The notes under the pieces: generated by a model
The model's database searches: none
Told to the model about the DNA's origin: nothing
The model's input: the letters and a program-made list of their open reading frames with translations, nothing else
Part shown: piece after piece, positions 5,692 through 13,474 of the stretch
How positions within the stretch are numbered: position 1 is the first letter of the stretch
How the letters are laid out: the number at the start of each line of letters is the position of its first letter
Position numbers and translations under genes: made by a program
Assembly (NCBI GenBank): GCA_023475715.1
Contig: JAMCVO010000007.1
Location: forward strand, 1-20,617
Reading direction: 5' to 3'
Origin: Actinomycetota bacterium
Lineage (GTDB): Bacteria; Actinomycetota; Humimicrobiia; Humimicrobiales; Humimicrobiaceae
Length of the DNA stretch: 20,617 nt

Positions 5692-5709
5692 AAAAAGGAG
5701 GTAGCATAT

Positions 5710-6768
5710 ATGACTCCTTTGCTTTTTACTTCAAATCAGTCATTTTCTGGCAAGAGCTCACTTTGCGTAGGTGTAGGAAGCATTCTTAAAGATATGGGCT
5801 TAAAAGTTGGTTATATGAAGCCTGTGGGTACTTTACCTGTAATAGTTAATGGTATCGTCACTGACGAAGATTCGCAGTATATATCCAAAATTTTTGGTAT
5901 GAAGAATAACGCCACTGATATATGCCCCATTATTTTATCTGAAGATTCTTATAAAGACTTCTTAAAAGACAGTAAATCTTCGGGCAATCTTCTGGAAAAA
6001 ATAAACAAAGCATTCAATAATATCAAGCAAGGCAGAGACATAATACTGCTTGAAGGTGGAAAAAGCATTGAGGATGGATTATTTCTTGGTATTTCATCAA
6101 GAGATATATGCAAGAAAATAAATGCAAAAACAATTGTGATTTTTAAATATTTACCTGAAATAATAGATCAAGTTTTATATTATAAAGAATATTTCGATAA
6201 TAATTTTGGGGGAATAATCATCAATCAGGTACCCAAAGAAAGTATAGATTATCTAAAGGATTTTATACTGCCTTTTCTTTTAAATAAAAAAATAAATGTA
6301 TTTGGTTGCATAACTTCCGATAAGATTTTGTCGTCCGTCAGCATTAGGGAAATGGTAAAGTATTTAGACGGCAAGATATTAAGCGCAAAAGATAATGTGG
6401 ATGAGCTTGTGGAAACTTTTATGCTTGGAGCCATGGGCCAGGAACAAGCTCTTAAATTTTTTAGAATGAAAGCAAATAAGGCAGTTATCACAGGTGGGGA
6501 TCGGGCAGATATTCAGCTTGCAGCACTTGAGACTAATACCAAGTGCCTAATTTTAACAGGGAACTTTCAACCAAGCAGTGTCGTTCTTGGACGAGCGGAA
6601 GAAATTGGTGTTCCCATGATACTGGTAAAATATGATACTCTTACTACGGTTGAGAAACTGAATGTAATAATTGGGCATTCGGGATTCCATGCATTTAAGA
6701 AAATCGATAAGATAATTCAAATAACTAAAGAATTTATTGATATTGAAGGTTTATTAAAGCTTAAATGA
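5710..6768 (+). CDS. BioD-like P-loop plus DRTGG domain protein (phosphotransacetylase N-terminal-like)
   Basis: A 352-residue protein resembling the stand-alone N-terminal region of long phosphotransacetylases (COG0857 type). An N-terminal dethiobiotin-synthetase-like P-loop domain (about 1-200) has the Walker A-like TSNQSFSGKS at residues 7-16 and the conserved MKPVG at 36-40. A DRTGG domain follows (about 207-320) with TGGDRADIQLAAL at 261-273. There is no phosphate acetyltransferase catalytic domain. The ATG is preceded by AGGAGGT (5696-5702), 18 bases after the acyl-CoA ligase gene, so the two are probably co-translated. In large Pta enzymes this region is linked to regulation. A regulatory or sensing partner of the ADP-forming ligase is my inference from context. 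The biochemical activity is unknown. Confidence 0.8.
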   Translation: MTPLLFTSNQSFSGKSSLCVGVGSILKDMGLKVGYMKPVGTLPVIVNGIVTDEDSQYISKIFGMKNNATDICPIILSEDSYKDFLKDSKSSGNLLEKINKAFNNIKQGRDIILLEGGKSIEDGLFLGISSRDICKKINAKTIVIFKYLPEIIDQVLYYKEYFDNNFGGIIINQVPKESIDYLKDFILPFLLNKKINVFGCITSDKILSSVSIREMVKYLDGKILSAKDNVDELVETFMLGAMGQEQALKFFRMKANKAVITGGDRADIQLAALETNTKCLILTGNFQPSSVVLGRAEEIGVPMILVKYDTLTTVEKLNVIIGHSGFHAFKKIDKIIQITKEFIDIEGLLKLK

Positions 6769-6800
6769 ATTGAAAATAAATTTACTGGAATAACACTTTA

Positions 6801-7808
6801 TTGGAAAAAAATCTACAAAAATATAGCATAATAGTGGATGCAATGGGAGGTGATTTTGCTCCTGATGAAATTCTAAAAGGAGCCATCCAGGAAAGCAGAA
6901 ATCTTAATATAAACCTGATTCTTGCTGGTAAAGATAAAATAATAAGAAATTCTGCGTCTCGTAATAATCTTGATATAAGCAACATCGAGATACTGGACTG
7001 TGCCGATGAAGTTGCTATGGACGACCACCCTTCGGATGTAATTAAGCATAAGAAAGAATCTTCAATTTATTTGGGCACCCAGTATGCAGCAAAAAAAGAA
7101 AGAAGTGCATTTTTATCTGCCGGAAATACCGGTGCGGTACTGGCTTGCTCTCTTTTTAATATGAAAAAAATAAAAGGAATCATGCGTCCGGCAATAGCTG
7201 TTGTAATTCCTCTTGCAAACAGCAGATTTATATTAATTGATGCCGGCGCAAATTTGGAAGTTAAACCTGTATATTTAAAGCAATTTGCAAGCATGGGCAA
7301 AATTTTGAGTCAAAATATTTTAAATATTGAAAATCCAAAGATTGGTTTATTGAACGTCGGGGCTGAAGAAAAAAAAGGAAGCGAAATTTTAGTTGAAGCT
7401 TTCAAATTATTGAGTGAATCAGATATTAATTTTATTGGTAACGTTGAAGGGCGAGACATATTTGAAGGAAGCACGGATATTGTCGTATGCGACGGTTTTG
7501 TTGGAAATGTTTTACTGAAATCAGTGGAAGGTATTGCAAAATTATTTTTTGGTGAAATAAAAAGTATTTTAACATATAATCTAATAACAAAACTTGCAGC
7601 TTCTGTTCTTAAGGGACGATTTAAAGCGATGAAAAAGAAATTTGACTATGAAGAATATGGGGGAGCTATGCTGTTAGGAATAGATGGAATTTCTATGATC
7701 TCTCATGGAAGCTCAAAAGCAAAAGCGATAAGCAGTGCGATGAAAGTTGCTTATGAAAATTTAAAAATTGATATTGTCGGTAAAATAAAAAGTGAGATAA
7801 CCAAATAA
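6801..7808 (+). CDS. plsX: Phosphate acyltransferase PlsX
   Basis: PlsX makes acyl-phosphate from acyl-ACP and phosphate. PlsY then uses acyl-phosphate to acylate glycerol-3-phosphate, the first step of phospholipid synthesis at the inner membrane face. Family signatures are IIVDAMGGDFAPDEILKGA at the N-terminus, GNTGA, DAGAN, NVGAEEKKG, then GRDIFEG, CDGFVGN and SHGSSKAKA near the C-terminus. Length is 335 residues, normal. The start is TTG 6801. No better start precedes VDAMGGD, and the ribosome site is weak (GGA at 6787-6789). acpP follows after 25 bases. The fabH, fabD, fabG and fabF genes that commonly lie between plsX and acpP are absent here. Confidence 0.95.
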   Translation: MEKNLQKYSIIVDAMGGDFAPDEILKGAIQESRNLNINLILAGKDKIIRNSASRNNLDISNIEILDCADEVAMDDHPSDVIKHKKESSIYLGTQYAAKKERSAFLSAGNTGAVLACSLFNMKKIKGIMRPAIAVVIPLANSRFILIDAGANLEVKPVYLKQFASMGKILSQNILNIENPKIGLLNVGAEEKKGSEILVEAFKLLSESDINFIGNVEGRDIFEGSTDIVVCDGFVGNVLLKSVEGIAKLFFGEIKSILTYNLITKLAASVLKGRFKAMKKKFDYEEYGGAMLLGIDGISMISHGSSKAKAISSAMKVAYENLKIDIVGKIKSEITK

Positions 7809-7833
7809 AGTCTAATAAAAACAAGGAGGAAAT

Positions 7834-8070
7834 GTGGAAAATTTTGACAAGCTCAAAGAAATACTTGTAGATGTACTTGGAGTAAAGATGGAAGATATAA
7901 AAGCAGAAAGCAAGTTTGTTGATGACCTGGGGGCAGATTCACTTGATTTGGTAGAATTAATAATGTCTTTTGAAGATAAATTCGGTATTGAAATTAGTGA
8001 TGAAGAGGCCGAAAAGATAATATCAGTCAAAGATGCATTAGACTATATTAATTCTCACATCAGTAAGTAA
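7834..8070 (+). CDS. acpP: Acyl carrier protein
   Basis: Small acidic carrier protein that holds growing fatty acyl chains on a 4'-phosphopantetheine arm. The modification site is Ser36 in [12 protein letters not shown], the same position as in E. coli ACP. The 78-residue length and the helical acidic composition are typical. The GTG start at 7834 lies 3 bases after AAGGAGGA (7823-7830). An ATG at 7832 is out of frame. The gene supplies the acyl-ACP substrate of the upstream PlsX and is followed by rnc, as in many bacteria. Confidence 0.96.
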
Positions 8071-8128
8071 TTAAAACCTATGTTGATTTTTTAAAAGTAT
8101 TTTAAAAAATAAAAAATTTAGTTCATAG

Positions 8129-8134
8129 TATAAT
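8129..8134 (+). promoter_or_regulatory. Candidate -10 element just upstream of rnc
   Basis: A perfect TATAAT lies 8 bases before the rnc ATG (8143) in the 72-base AT-rich gap after acpP. No good -35 hexamer is visible at 16-18 bases, so the promoter call is weak. If used, transcription would begin within a base or two of the start codon, giving a nearly leaderless mRNA. There is no Shine-Dalgarno site for rnc. Confidence 0.35.
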
Positions 8135-8142
8135 GATAACTG

Positions 8143-8856
8143 ATGGAAGAAGGGTTACTAAGAAAAAAAGTTAAGAGTTGGCTTATTGGTCTTGGAATTG
8201 ATCCAGGCGACTTAAAAATATATATCGAAAGTCTAACCCATAGATCTTTCGCAAGAGAAATCAATATAAAATCAAGAGGAAATGAACAATTAGAATTTTT
8301 AGGTGACAGTGTCCTGTCTTTTATAATAACCAGTTACCTCTATAAAAATTTTGGGTATTTTCCTGAAGGAAGACTTGCAAAAATCAGGTCATTACTGATA
8401 AGCGGAAAAAACTTAGGAGATATAGCAAAAAAGATCCGGCTTGATAAGCAGATACTCCTTAGTGAAAATGAGGAATCTTCCAAAGGAAGGGGAAAAGAAT
8501 CAATCCTTGCAGACAGTCTGGAAGCTTTTATAGGTGCGCTTTATATTGATAAGGGAATAAATTTTGTAAGCCAATGGTTCTTAAGTAAGTTTGAAGACAC
8601 TATTGAAGAAAAAACCAATGACCCAAAAATATCCGATTATAAAACTTACCTTCAGGAAATAATTCAGGCAGACTACAATAAGTTGGTAAAATATGACATT
8701 GAAAAATCAGAAGGACCTGACCATAATAAAATTTTTTATTCAATAGCTATTTTAGATGATAAAATTATTGGAAAAGGTTCAGGAAAGAGCAAAAAAGATT
8801 CAGAACAGGAATCTGCTAAGAATGCATTAAAAATATTGTATAATTTAAAGATATAG
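8143..8856 (+). CDS. rnc: Ribonuclease III
   Basis: RNase III cleaves double-stranded RNA, including rRNA precursors. The N-terminal nuclease domain (about 1-150) has the signature NEQLEFLGDS (residues 47-56) with acidic residues E48, E51 and D55, then E76, D124 and E127, matching the E. coli metal-site pattern. A double-stranded RNA-binding domain covers about 161-235, ending in the typical GKGSGKSKKDSEQESAKNAL. Length is 237 residues, normal. ATG 8143 fits the domain start, with no Shine-Dalgarno site upstream. The following rnc-smc-ftsY-ffh order is widely conserved. Confidence 0.96.
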   Translation: MEEGLLRKKVKSWLIGLGIDPGDLKIYIESLTHRSFAREINIKSRGNEQLEFLGDSVLSFIITSYLYKNFGYFPEGRLAKIRSLLISGKNLGDIAKKIRLDKQILLSENEESSKGRGKESILADSLEAFIGALYIDKGINFVSQWFLSKFEDTIEEKTNDPKISDYKTYLQEIIQADYNKLVKYDIEKSEGPDHNKIFYSIAILDDKIIGKGSGKSKKDSEQESAKNALKILYNLKI

Positions 8857-8882
8857 AAATATGCTATTGAGTAGGTAAAACA

Positions 8883-11258
8883 TTGTTTTTAAAAAACATC
8901 ACCCTCAGGGGTTTTAAATCATTTGCAAATAAGAGTCAATTAATTTTTGAACCAGGAATATGTGTAATTGTCGGTCCGAATGGCAGCGGCAAGAGTAATG
9001 TAGCCGATGCTATTTCGTGGGTTCTCGGAGAACAACGGGCAAAATCTCTTCGCGGAAACTCAATGGAAGATGTTATATTCAGAAATAAAAAAGAAGAACT
9101 TGCAATTGCGGAAGTATCCCTTTCTTTTGACAATTCTGATAATTTTTTAAACCTTGACTTTAAAGAAGTTAAAATCACAAGAAGAGTATTCGTAAAGGGT
9201 GGAAGTGAGTACTTTATAAACTCATCTCCATGCAGACTTATAGATATACAAGATCTAACTGCTGAGCAAGGAATCGGAAAAGGATTTTATACAATAATAA
9301 ACCAGGGCCAGGTAAATGATATTGCAGTTTTAAAACCTTCAGACAGAAAAATAATTATAGATGAGTTAATAGGTGTAGCCAAGCATAAAATCAGAAGAGA
9401 TAAATCTAAAAATAAACTACTAAAAGTATCCGGTGATATAGAAAGAATAGACGATTTAATGCATGAAGTTAAAAGAACTCTTGATCCGCTGGAAATAGAA
9501 TCTAAAAAAGCCCAGCAATATTCTGAAGTACATAATAATCTAAAGAGTGAAGAGTTATCTCTTTTTATTTCAGAATTAAATGAATTAAATAAGAAATGGG
9601 AAGATGAAAATGCAAAAAATGAGGAAAATGAAATAAGATTAAAAGAAATAAATCAAAAAATAGAACTTTTTATTAAAGAAAAAAGCCAGCAGCAGAAAAA
9701 TATTTATAACAGCAGGTCAAGATATAATTATCTAAAAGAAAAAATAGATGATTTCAATTTAAAGGAAAATAAAGCCAGCAGCATGATAAATCTATTTGAG
9801 AGTAAAAAGAATGTGTTTAGCACTTTAAATAATATGTTAAAAATGGAATATTCCAGCCTTAAATCATCAACCCAGCAAATTTCAGTTACTAAAAGCTTTA
9901 ATGAAAATAAAAAAAGCAATGCCTACCAGGAAAATGCTAAATTTATTTTAAGAAGTTTTAAAAACCTGGATAATAAAATAAATGAATTCTTCAGCAAGAT
10001 AAAAAATTATATTTCCAGAATTGAATTAATAATTGAATTTGAAAAGGATAAAGAATCAATTAAAAAAGAGTTAACTGAATTGATGGAGCTGATAAAAAAA
10101 TATATTGGTTCATCAATTGATTCAATAGATGATGGTAAGAAAAATATTGAAATAACGAATGAAAGAAATAAATCAGCCAAATTATTTGCTGAAATAGAGA
10201 AAAAGCTCGAAAATATTCAAACTCTTGAGAATTATTGTCTGAACAGAGTTAAAGATACTGAAAAAATATTATCAGTTTTAAATATTTTTATAAAAACTGC
10301 TCAAAGGATAAAAGACAGGCTTTATCCGGAATATAAAGAACTTTATAGAAAAATTGAAGATGAAGATAAAAGTTTTTATGAATTTGATAATAAGATAAAT
10401 GATGCAAGAATAGAAAAACAAAATATTGATAATGAACTTTTTAAAATCAACTTTACCAAGCAGCAGATAAAAGAAAATGTAACAAATAAAACAGAGGCCG
10501 TAGTAGATGCTTACAATCTTCCGGTAGAATATATATTTAAGAATTATAAACCCTGTGAAGACATAGAAAAAACTTCCCGGATTGTCAGAAGATTAAAAAA
10601 CGAGATAAAAAATTTTGGCAGTATTAATCCAAACGCAACCATAGAATTTAACAGGGTAAAAGAAAGATATGATTTTTTACAATCTCAACGTGACGATCTT
10701 TTTAATAGCAAAAAAAATCTTGAACTTTTGATAAATGATATAAATAAAAAAATAGAAGAATTATTTGCTGTAAAATTTGAAGAAATAAACAACAACTTTA
10801 AAACATATTTTAAAATATTGTTCCCCATTGGAGAAGGCAGAATGAATCTGATAAATTCAGACAATAATAGTGGAGATGAAATAGGAATAGATATGAAGGT
10901 TGATATCGGAAACAATAAACTTGTACAGTTATCATTATTGTCTGGTGGTGAGAAAGCTTTGATATCTATTGCTTTCTTATTCTCTATATTTGCATCGAAT
11001 ATTGCACCTTTTTATGTTTTTGATGAGATAGATGCAGCTTTGGATGATATGAATTTAAACAGATTTATTGCCTTGGTAAAAAAATTCTCTTCGGGAAGGC
11101 AGGTAATAATAATTACACATCAGAAAAAAACAATGGAAGTGGCCAATACAATCTATGGTGTAACAATGCAGTCGACGGGTGTTTCAAAAATCGTTTCCGA
11201 GAAGATGGAGAAGATACATGAAAAGGCTATTAAAGAATCTAAACTTAATATGGAATAA
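8883..11258 (+). CDS. smc: SMC-family chromosome segregation ATPase, short and apparently hinge-less
   Basis: SMC ATPases organise and segregate chromosomes, normally as hinge-dimerised V-shaped dimers with ScpA and ScpB. Both ATPase halves are intact. The N-terminal head has Walker A GPNGSGKSNV (31-40) and the Q-loop region ending in INQGQVNDI. The C-terminal head has the signature LLSGGEKAL (685-693) and Walker B FYVFDEIDAAL (710-720), then the D-loop and ITHQ. The SMC-specific RYDFLQSQRDDL and NFKTYFKILFPIG segments precede the C-head. The protein is only 791 residues against about 1,150-1,200 in usual SMCs. Between about 170 and 640 I see only coiled coil and no Gly-rich hinge domain. A turn near 405-425 would give arms of about 235 and 215 residues. 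TTG 8883 is the start (MFLKNITLRGFKSF). It overlaps ftsY by 41 bases. An in-frame deletion artefact cannot be excluded. Confidence 0.88.
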   Translation: MFLKNITLRGFKSFANKSQLIFEPGICVIVGPNGSGKSNVADAISWVLGEQRAKSLRGNSMEDVIFRNKKEELAIAEVSLSFDNSDNFLNLDFKEVKITRRVFVKGGSEYFINSSPCRLIDIQDLTAEQGIGKGFYTIINQGQVNDIAVLKPSDRKIIIDELIGVAKHKIRRDKSKNKLLKVSGDIERIDDLMHEVKRTLDPLEIESKKAQQYSEVHNNLKSEELSLFISELNELNKKWEDENAKNEENEIRLKEINQKIELFIKEKSQQQKNIYNSRSRYNYLKEKIDDFNLKENKASSMINLFESKKNVFSTLNNMLKMEYSSLKSSTQQISVTKSFNENKKSNAYQENAKFILRSFKNLDNKINEFFSKIKNYISRIELIIEFEKDKESIKKELTELMELIKKYIGSSIDSIDDGKKNIEITNERNKSAKLFAEIEKKLENIQTLENYCLNRVKDTEKILSVLNIFIKTAQRIKDRLYPEYKELYRKIEDEDKSFYEFDNKINDARIEKQNIDNELFKINFTKQQIKENVTNKTEAVVDAYNLPVEYIFKNYKPCEDIEKTSRIVRRLKNEIKNFGSINPNATIEFNRVKERYDFLQSQRDDLFNSKKNLELLINDINKKIEELFAVKFEEINNNFKTYFKILFPIGEGRMNLINSDNNSGDEIGIDMKVDIGNNKLVQLSLLSGGEKALISIAFLFSIFASNIAPFYVFDEIDAALDDMNLNRFIALVKKFSSGRQVIIITHQKKTMEVANTIYGVTMQSTGVSKIVSEKMEKIHEKAIKESKLNME

Positions 11259-12105
11259 ATTTAAAAAAAGCAATGACTCATTTTGGGATGAAGTCGAAGA
11301 GCAGTTGATTCTAAATGATATAGGAGCAAGTACTGCAAGCAGTATTATTTCTGATGTAAGGAAGCATGCTTTTAAAGAAAATATCAACAATATAGAAACA
11401 ATAAAAGAATTTTTAAAAGACAAGATTGTTAAAATATTGGATAATGACACTTCTTCAGGCAGCAGTATTGTTAAATTTTCAAGTGAAATACCTGCGGTCT
11501 GGATGATGGTTGGAGTAAATGGAGTAGGGAAGACTTCATCAATTGCTAAGATAGCCAATCTGTTTAAAAATCAAAATAAAAGTATTTTGCTTACTGCGGC
11601 CGATACTTACAGAGCTGCTGCATTTGAACAGATTGACCACTATGCAAAATTGCTTGATATTGAAATAGTACATCATCAAAGATATTCTGATCCTGGTGCA
11701 GTAGTCTATGATAGTATTGAAAAAGCAATTGCAAAAAAGATAGACTTGGTACTGATAGACACGGCTGGGAGAATGCATACCTCATATAATTTGATGGAAG
11801 AATTGAAAAAAATCAAAAAAGTAATATGTAAAAAACTATGCAGGGAAGCTGATGAAATATTGATGGTTATAGATTCTACAACAGGACAGAATGCAAAGAT
11901 CCAAGCATCCATCTTTAATGAAGCTTTAGATCTTACGGGCATAGTTCTGACAAAAACTGACGGAACGTCAAAAGGTGGTATTGTATTGACCATTAAGCAT
12001 GAATTAAATATTCCCATAAAATTTATCACAAGTGGTGAAAAAATTAATAATATTGATTTTTTTGATCCAATTAAATTTACTGAAATGCTATTTAACCAGG
12101 AGTGA
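11218..12105 (+). CDS. ftsY: Signal recognition particle receptor FtsY
   Basis: FtsY is the SRP receptor GTPase at the membrane that docks Ffh-ribosome complexes at the translocon. The NG domain is complete: P-loop GVNGVGKTS (residues 99-107), TAADTYRAAAFEQ, DTAGRMH, DSTTGQNA and TKTDGTSKGG. I chose ATG 11218 (MKRLLKNLNLIW) because GGAG (11207-11210) lies 7 bases upstream. An in-frame start at 11179 would add 13 residues with no support. The 295-residue product lacks the long acidic A domain of E. coli FtsY, as in many Gram-positive bacteria. It overlaps smc at its 5' end and nearly touches ffh, with only 4 bases between the FtsY stop and the Ffh start, suggesting translational coupling. Confidence 0.95.
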   Translation: MKRLLKNLNLIWNKFKKSNDSFWDEVEEQLILNDIGASTASSIISDVRKHAFKENINNIETIKEFLKDKIVKILDNDTSSGSSIVKFSSEIPAVWMMVGVNGVGKTSSIAKIANLFKNQNKSILLTAADTYRAAAFEQIDHYAKLLDIEIVHHQRYSDPGAVVYDSIEKAIAKKIDLVLIDTAGRMHTSYNLMEELKKIKKVICKKLCREADEILMVIDSTTGQNAKIQASIFNEALDLTGIVLTKTDGTSKGGIVLTIKHELNIPIKFITSGEKINNIDFFDPIKFTEMLFNQE

Positions 12106-12109
12106 CATA

Positions 12110-13429
12110 ATGTTTGAATTTTTAACAAAAAAATTTGAAGATCTTTTTTATAAAATAAGAAATAAAGGGAAGCTAAGCCCTGTAGATTTGGATAATGCCA
12201 TCAGAGAAATAAGACTTGCGTTGCTTGAAGCGGATGTAAATTTTAAAGTAGTTAAGGAGTTTCTTGAAAATATAAAACAAAAGGCAATTGGAGCCAATGT
12301 TCTTGAAAGCCTCACTCCTTATCAGCAGATAGTAAAAATAGTAGATGAAGAAATGATTTCAATGCTTGGCAGTACCGGAAGTGAAATTACTTTTTCGCCA
12401 AAGATTCCTACAATATTTATGCTTGTAGGATTGCAGGGAACAGGTAAAACTACCGCTACAATAAAATTGGCAAACTTTATTAAAAATAAATATCAAAGAA
12501 AAGTTTCTGTAATAGCTGCTGATATTTATCGGCCTGCTGCAGTTAAACAGCTTGAAGATCTTGCAAAAAAATATGGATTTGATATTTACTCGGAAACAAA
12601 TCCTGATCCCATAAAAATATCTGTAAATGGTATAGAAGCTTTGCGAAAAAATAGCAATGACGTAGTAATCATAGATACGGCCGGCAGGCTTCAAATAGAT
12701 ACAGATATGATGAATGAACTGAAAAATATCAGATCAAAAGTCTTACCGCATCAAATTATGCTGGTATTGGATGCAATGACAGGCCAGGAAGCAGTTAATA
12801 TTGCTTCCGAATTCAACCGTATTCTCGAGTTTGATGGAATAATATTGACAAAACTGGACAGTGACACAAGAGGTGGTGCAGCTCTCTCAATTAATCATGT
12901 AATAAAGAAGCCGATAAAGTTCATTTCAACTGGTGAAAAGATTGAAGAATTTGATTTATTTTACCCTGACAGGATTGCTTCAAGAATACTTGGAATGGGT
13001 GATGTTTTAACTTTAATAGAAAAAGCCGAAAAAGTCATTGATGAAAAAAAAGCTAAAGAGCTTGAACAAAAAATTTATAAAAACGAGCTCAATTTTATTG
13101 ATTTTGTCGATCAGCTAAAAAGTATAAGGAAAATAGGTTCACTTGATAAAATACTCTCCATGCTGCCGGTAAAAAACAAGAGCATGATTTTTAAAAATGC
13201 CAAAATAGATGATTCACAAATCGACAGGATAGAGTCGATGATAAATTCAATGACCATAGAAGAAAAGATGAAACCTCATATTATTAATGGCAGCAGAAAA
13301 AAAAGAATAGCTGCGGGAAGTGGAACATCTGTAGGTGATATAAACAGACTGCTTAAGCAATTTAGTATGGCGCAACAGGCATTGCGGCAATTTTCCAGAT
13401 TCGGAAAAGGATTACAAATGCCTTTTTAA
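12110..13429 (+). CDS. ffh: Signal recognition particle protein Ffh
   Basis: Ffh binds signal sequences emerging from the ribosome and SRP RNA, and forms a GTPase pair with FtsY. It shows the N domain (about 1-90), the G domain with GLQGTGKTT (107-115), AADIYRPAA, DTAGRLQ (189-195) and TKLDSDTRGG, and a C-terminal M domain. The M domain includes RKIGSLDKILSMLP and the RNA-binding RIAAGSGTSVGDINRLLKQF. Length is 439 residues, normal. I chose ATG 12110 (MFEFLTKKFEDL) with AGGAG at 12098-12102, which overlaps the end of ftsY. An in-frame upstream extension lies within ftsY and is not conserved-looking. No 4.5S/SRP RNA gene was recognised nearby. Confidence 0.96.
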   Translation: MFEFLTKKFEDLFYKIRNKGKLSPVDLDNAIREIRLALLEADVNFKVVKEFLENIKQKAIGANVLESLTPYQQIVKIVDEEMISMLGSTGSEITFSPKIPTIFMLVGLQGTGKTTATIKLANFIKNKYQRKVSVIAADIYRPAAVKQLEDLAKKYGFDIYSETNPDPIKISVNGIEALRKNSNDVVIIDTAGRLQIDTDMMNELKNIRSKVLPHQIMLVLDAMTGQEAVNIASEFNRILEFDGIILTKLDSDTRGGAALSINHVIKKPIKFISTGEKIEEFDLFYPDRIASRILGMGDVLTLIEKAEKVIDEKKAKELEQKIYKNELNFIDFVDQLKSIRKIGSLDKILSMLPVKNKSMIFKNAKIDDSQIDRIESMINSMTIEEKMKPHIINGSRKKRIAAGSGTSVGDINRLLKQFSMAQQALRQFSRFGKGLQMPF

Positions 13430-13445
13430 ATGACCTAAAAAATAT

Positions 13446-13474
13446 TTTGCAGTTTTTTGATAAAAATATATAAT
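13446..13474 (+). promoter_or_regulatory. Candidate promoter for the rpsP operon
   Basis: TTTGCA (13446-13451), 17 bases, then a perfect TATAAT (13469-13474) in the 105-base AT-rich gap between ffh and rpsP. The predicted transcription start near 13481 would give a leader of about 54 bases before the rpsP TTG. The -35 match is poor, so confidence rests mainly on the -10 element and its position. Confidence 0.45.

Follow-up and report, generated by a model that had tools for sequence, protein, structure and literature searches.

In ring and loop-extrusion models, the hinge is the permanent joint of two Smc proteins and possibly a gate for DNA. Rad50/SbcC, which have a role in repair, combine a head and antiparallel arms without a hinge, as does the protein described here. 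In B. subtilis, where Smc acts as part of Smc-ScpAB, replacement of the hinge by a Rad50 zinc hook gives normal growth on rich medium, according to the passages of PMC5344682 on this construct. Which fold the joint has is thus uncritical, although a joint is still present. Both the zinc-hook protein and the mini-Smc constructs of the same work, with arms shortened in steps, are engineered and keep a strong dimerisation domain, unlike the protein of this study (PMC5344682). In hinge-less B. subtilis Smc, rod contacts between the arms probably contribute to dimerisation, as stated in the relevant passage of PMC5526789. Altered hinges have also been described in nature. A 2025 paper that treats the hinge as a gate reports, in its parts on MukB, Wadjet II/III and Acetobacter Smc, hinges that have no channel but are retained, mostly at the end of longer arms (PMC12647877). 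As for the archaea-specific SMC-related proteins (coalescin, Sph), they are short and hinge-less members of the SMC superfamily like our protein, and most bear a zinc hook in the account given in PMC9389158.

A hinge-less SMC as such is not wholly new, since a 2025 survey of ocean genes reported an abundant clade of them in marine Actinobacteria (OM-RGC cluster 9), modelled with AlphaFold (PMC12153180). The passages on this clade describe it as devoid of CXXC and not seen together with a regular SMC, and propose that it possibly represents an unknown lineage that lost the hinge. The protein of this study is likewise actinobacterial, hinge-less, without CXXC and without a regular SMC alongside. 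Those passages give no lineage and describe neither ScpAB, gene order nor recurrence. We set the two side by side by description only, so that they may belong to one lineage or to two. In the open-licence PubMed Central literature, we found no other report of a natural hinge-less Smc. Our finding agrees with the proposal made in those passages of PMC12153180 and adds to it a probable class, partners, a gene order, a tip anatomy and recurrence.

The window, i.e. the whole stretch of 20,617 nucleotides that was analysed, harbours an smc gene that starts with TTG and codes for a protein of 791 residues. The features of the gene and of its surroundings are as follows, all on the forward strand; 'class loci' are the smc loci of related genomes defined below.

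8143..8856, + strand: upstream neighbour, presumably rnc (ribonuclease III); ORF, with a homologue adjoining smc in 30 of 33 class loci
8883..11258, + strand: hinge-less smc gene, 791 aa; ORF, translation, Pfam and TIGR02168 scans
8883..9374, + strand: N-terminal half of the head (residues 1-164), bearing Walker A; sequence, model, matches to solved Smc heads
9375..9872, + strand: N-terminal arm, predicted as a single long helix (residues 165-330); AlphaFold2 model, the helix running to 334 in the other model
9789..9836, + strand: conserved patch below the tip (residues 303-318); conservation among close relatives
9873..9923, + strand: low-confidence loop (residues 331-347); AlphaFold2 model
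9924..10103, + strand: predicted tip hairpin, helices 348-374 and 380-407; two AlphaFold2 models
10104..10166, + strand: low-confidence tip loop of variable length (residues 408-428); model, comparison with relatives
10167..10616, + strand: C-terminal arm (residues 429-578); AlphaFold2 model
10236..10238, + strand: C452, present in 54 of 54 close relatives
10617..11255, + strand: C-terminal half of the head (residues 579-791), bearing the LSGGE signature and Walker B; sequence, model, fold matches
11218..12105, + strand: downstream neighbour, presumably ftsY; ORF, with a homologue adjoining smc in 27 of 33 class loci

The start codon of ftsY was picked by us within an ORF listed from 11179, and the names of both neighbours come from general knowledge and from an earlier reading of the sequence alone.

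That the product belongs with the B. subtilis-type Smc proteins is indicated by its heads, neck region and gene position. It scores 615 bits against the NCBIfam Smc equivalog TIGR02168 (cut-off 567.35), with a match in two stretches, the best of which spans residues 2-445. In a Pfam scan with E values up to 10, SMC_N matches residues 2-768 with 215.9 bits, along with other ATPase models, and the split ABC head is present with its Walker A, signature and Walker B motifs. The sequence-only reading had described complete, SMC-specific head halves and the standard rnc-smc-ftsY position; both descriptions hold, and the gene order is kept in most class loci.

The difference from the B. subtilis type lies between the heads. 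The same Pfam scan gave no match to SMC_hinge (PF06470) in the window protein, and a six-frame search of 40 related genomes found none either; the identical search was positive in 10 of 14 control genomes. PF06470 separated ten relatives cleanly, with matches in the four full-length Smc (64.7 bits in L003, 73.7 in L006, 41.5 in L009 and 107.1 in L010) and in none of the six short ones. It was also positive in 28 of 32 chosen genomes and in 308 of 396 sampled genomes of the phylum, a sample that by our count includes 39 genomes of the class and in which 49 of the 357 others were negative. The model is nevertheless incompletely sensitive, as it missed four of the 14 controls; one of these, Caulobacter, does have a ScpA match. 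For this reason we built a custom hinge HMM, trained on part of the full-length Smc set. All 124 full-length proteins left out, some of which resemble training members, scored at least 34.5 bits. Among 189 sequences below 1000 aa, counted with partial ones after 14 duplicate or cut loci had been removed, 188 scored at most 5.8 bits; the remaining one, P0167 (977 aa), does possess a hinge. The observation of a natural Smc without a detectable hinge is confirmed.

We obtained two AlphaFold2 models; the first had a poor head (10-residue blocks with pLDDT 28-47 over most of residues 1-140), and the second was used. Both arms and the tip are predicted to be all-helical, and neither model has a strand between residues 165 and 578. 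Rows of the fold search are dominated by the head and arms, so that the tip falls outside what they test. Only 412 residues separate the heads, compared with 805-851 in full-length L003, L009 and L010; the arms are therefore shortened in addition to the loss of the hinge. The model gives paired arms of about 166 and 150 residues and a tip made of a helical hairpin (348-407) followed by a loop (408-428), instead of the apex at 405-425 and the nearly equal arms of about 235 and 215 residues initially proposed. The arms come near the minor mode of 163 residues in prokaryotes (the main modes reported in the relevant passages of PMC5344682 are 238, 341 and 515, with another minor one at 423), but arm definitions differ and we give this no weight. 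Among the 42 core-class rows of alignment A3, tip segments range from 89 to 143 residues in length, and a relaxed linker would explain this better than the fixed, 'designed' short hairpin first envisaged. What stands of the sequence-only interpretation is the natural hinge-less Smc, its short relatives and the presence of scpA and scpB in related genomes; the position of the apex and the equal arm lengths need correction.

To place the protein, we used 40 species genomes from the class to which the nearest bin, G001 (isolate KR13_N2.mb.106), belongs. One of the matches, at 54% identity, is from Candidatus Hydromicrobium, which NCBI assigns to Actinomycetota, class Candidatus Humimicrobiia, and we infer that this is the class of G001. 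An smc match was found in 37 of the 40 genomes; that of G040 is weak (E 2.5e-4), which leaves 36 counted. All 26 complete ORFs code for 730-893 aa, with start codons chosen by script, and the remaining loci are cut by contig ends. The three class loci in which rnc does not adjoin smc are all cut on that side, as are three of the six without adjoining ftsY. In the other three (L064-L066, of a branch with proteins of 885-893 aa), no ftsY occurs in the 0.4-1.1 kb available and rnc precedes smc.

The partners of Smc are found in these related genomes, ScpA in 36 and ScpB in 35 of the 40, and in 33 and 32, respectively, of the 36 with a hinge-less smc. Matches to ScpA mostly cover positions 1 to about 230 of the 232 of the model, and thus both of its ends are kept. 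G001 has ScpA and ScpB on a single contig, separated by about 150 bases. ParB is encoded in 35 of the 40 genomes, 34 of them over the ParB cut-off, and was not found in G001. Three genomes (G008, G024, G028) have ScpA and ScpB matches and no smc match, perhaps because they are incomplete. Given that ScpA, ScpB and ParB are widespread in the class, the window protein most likely acts as chromosomal Smc in a ParB-Smc-ScpAB system.

How might such a system work? The explanation that we consider best overall, and to which we give about an even chance of being right, is that of the chromosomal ParB-Smc-ScpAB ATPase of an uncultured actinobacterium, whose hinge was lost in the ancestor of the class, with contacts between arms or tips as a substitute. 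The arms would have been shortened and smc retained in its rnc-smc-ftsY locus. The heads would engage on ATP, ScpA with ScpB would span from one protomer's neck to its partner's head, and weaker arm or tip contacts would take over the second link once provided by the hinge. The conserved patch at about residues 303-318 and C452 are perhaps the sites of such contacts. In the patch, S307, K308, F312 and N317 are invariant in 54 of 54 close relatives. Part of the evidence goes the other way. The invariance of the patch and of C452 does not extend beyond close relatives: with deep branches added, K308 alone of the four patch residues stays nearly invariant, and C452 is absent from the 885-893 aa branch. 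For the hairpin, an HMM gave no match in two of seven left-out core relatives and in five of five from deep branches. Moreover, the zinc hook that works in B. subtilis still supplies a strong dimer link, as described in the passages of PMC5344682 cited above, which suggests that some link is needed.

The main rival is that nothing links the tips, so that only head engagement and ScpA-ScpB hold the protomers together, as a clamp that can open rather than a ring. We regard this as rather unlikely, though it accounts for several observations. No tip domain is conserved across the class, the tip varies in length, the HMM of the hairpin misses some relatives, the patch is not maintained in deep branches, and both the heads and ScpA/ScpB are retained. 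The residues of the upper arm that never vary among close relatives nevertheless suggest some contact, and what replaced the hinge successfully in B. subtilis was another dimerisation domain (PMC5344682, same passages).

Alternatively, the protomers might be linked by a hinge that has diverged, or by a separate partner, beyond the reach of sequence models. PF06470 does miss some genomes outside the class. Against a hinge of this kind, the custom HMM finds nothing in the class proteins, both models are free of strands from residue 165 to 578, and the stretch between the heads is too short to accommodate a hinge when measured against the three full-length Smc. We find this alternative improbable.

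It is more improbable still that the protein has changed function to become a Rad50- or RecN-like repair protein, with the chromosome folded by other means. Hinge-less SMC-family proteins such as Rad50/SbcC do act elsewhere, as noted in the passages of PMC12153180. Nevertheless, the window protein exceeds the cut-off of the Smc equivalog and stays far under those of the other families: its best score against NCBIfam Rad50 models is 52.6 bits (cut-off 1087), against RecN TIGR00634 46.9 bits (cut-off 407.85) and against NF045487, for the archaea-specific SMC-related proteins, 64.6 bits (cut-off 300). A zinc hook can be discarded, as the window sequence has no Rad50-type CXXC between residues 165 and 578, where C452 and C558 are the only cysteines. 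Besides, ScpA, ScpB, ParB and the smc locus are retained, and none of the 40 class genomes has a hinge-bearing Smc by PF06470 that could have taken over.

Finally, an assembly artefact (in-frame deletion, chimera or wrong gene model), against which the sequence-only reading had cautioned because of a chimeric left end, has a negligible probability: an inverted junction is indeed present at that end, but short relatives occur on many contigs, all 26 complete class ORFs are short and the contigs of the nearest bin are collinear with the window. The 39 closest relatives among the matches listed (P0003-P0041) are 751-793 aa long and 84-88% identical, and the best 120 of 7998 scored candidates, the window included, are 751-816 aa long. 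In G001, two contigs match window positions 6791-9650, 9980-10106 and 10203-13455 with a nucleotide identity of 89-90%. Positions 9651-9979 fall between the two contigs and are thus uncovered, and the length of the tip loop (10107-10202) is not the same. The inverted assembly junction is confined to about the first 115 bases, at the contig end and 8.7 kb from smc; by eye, bases 1-26 repeat 665-690, and bases ~27-115 are the reverse complement of ~291-385. We also observed that a gene at 5710-6768 (window 5694-6790) is absent from the otherwise collinear G001 contig (L002 4770-4803).

The loss of the hinge does not seem to be limited to this class. In three trees built on head columns only, the class Smc proteins form one clade, a branch with a protein of 849 aa included (support 66, 70 and 90), and the order within it differs between trees. 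At least two further hinge-less lineages are placed among full-length proteins. Proteins P0196 and P0200 (858 aa) are nested in a clade of Smc of 1,127-1,154 aa with a support of 100. L011 (852 aa, L011 4103-6658, from a Bifidobacteriaceae bin), which has no PF06470 match, groups beside the full-length Bifidobacterium Smc (support 100, 99 and 99). With a trace of 3.0 bits against the middle of the custom hinge HMM, it may hold a decayed hinge. A third set, of 916-945 aa and from the same phylum, lies among full-length proteins with weak support; it comprises P0128, P0139, P0158 and P0258 and the loci L078-L081, with the genomes G110, G247 and G286, to which G256 is added by its length. These four genomes are the ones without PF06470 among the chosen genomes, the other 28 all having it, and all four encode ScpA. 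From these separate positions, the hinge has probably disappeared on three or more occasions, the class being counted once. Apart from the class and the 916-945 aa set, a further 45 genomes of the phylum sample are PF06470-negative; diverged hinges, genes that are incomplete or additional hinge-less Smc may account for this.

It is tempting to speculate that the class runs a ParB-Smc-ScpAB machine throughout without a dedicated dimerisation domain at the apex, that in nature the motor can do without a hinge or any like-for-like substitute, and that the loss occurred independently several times; we advance this broader view tentatively, at somewhat less than even chances. A natural lineage with ScpA, ScpB and ParB but no hinge makes the need for the joint directly testable, and its small Smc is of use to structural studies. 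The marine hinge-less SMCs reported in 2025 may also gain a taxonomic and functional frame from it.

In the 916-945 aa group, P0128, P0139 and P0158 have a CX6C motif near the apex, with a wider spacing in P0258. As a hook it was rejected, since L079-L081 have no such pair and no apex column has a cysteine in at least five of the seven rows compared, L078 being left out. P0167-type Smc may or may not be evolutionary intermediates. P0167 on its own joined the class with a support of 100, but this grouping vanished when three more members were added. These proteins, P0167 and L082-L084 (genomes G046, G061 and G075), are 967-985 aa long and keep their hinge with about 600 residues between the heads, which indicates that arms can shorten without hinge loss.
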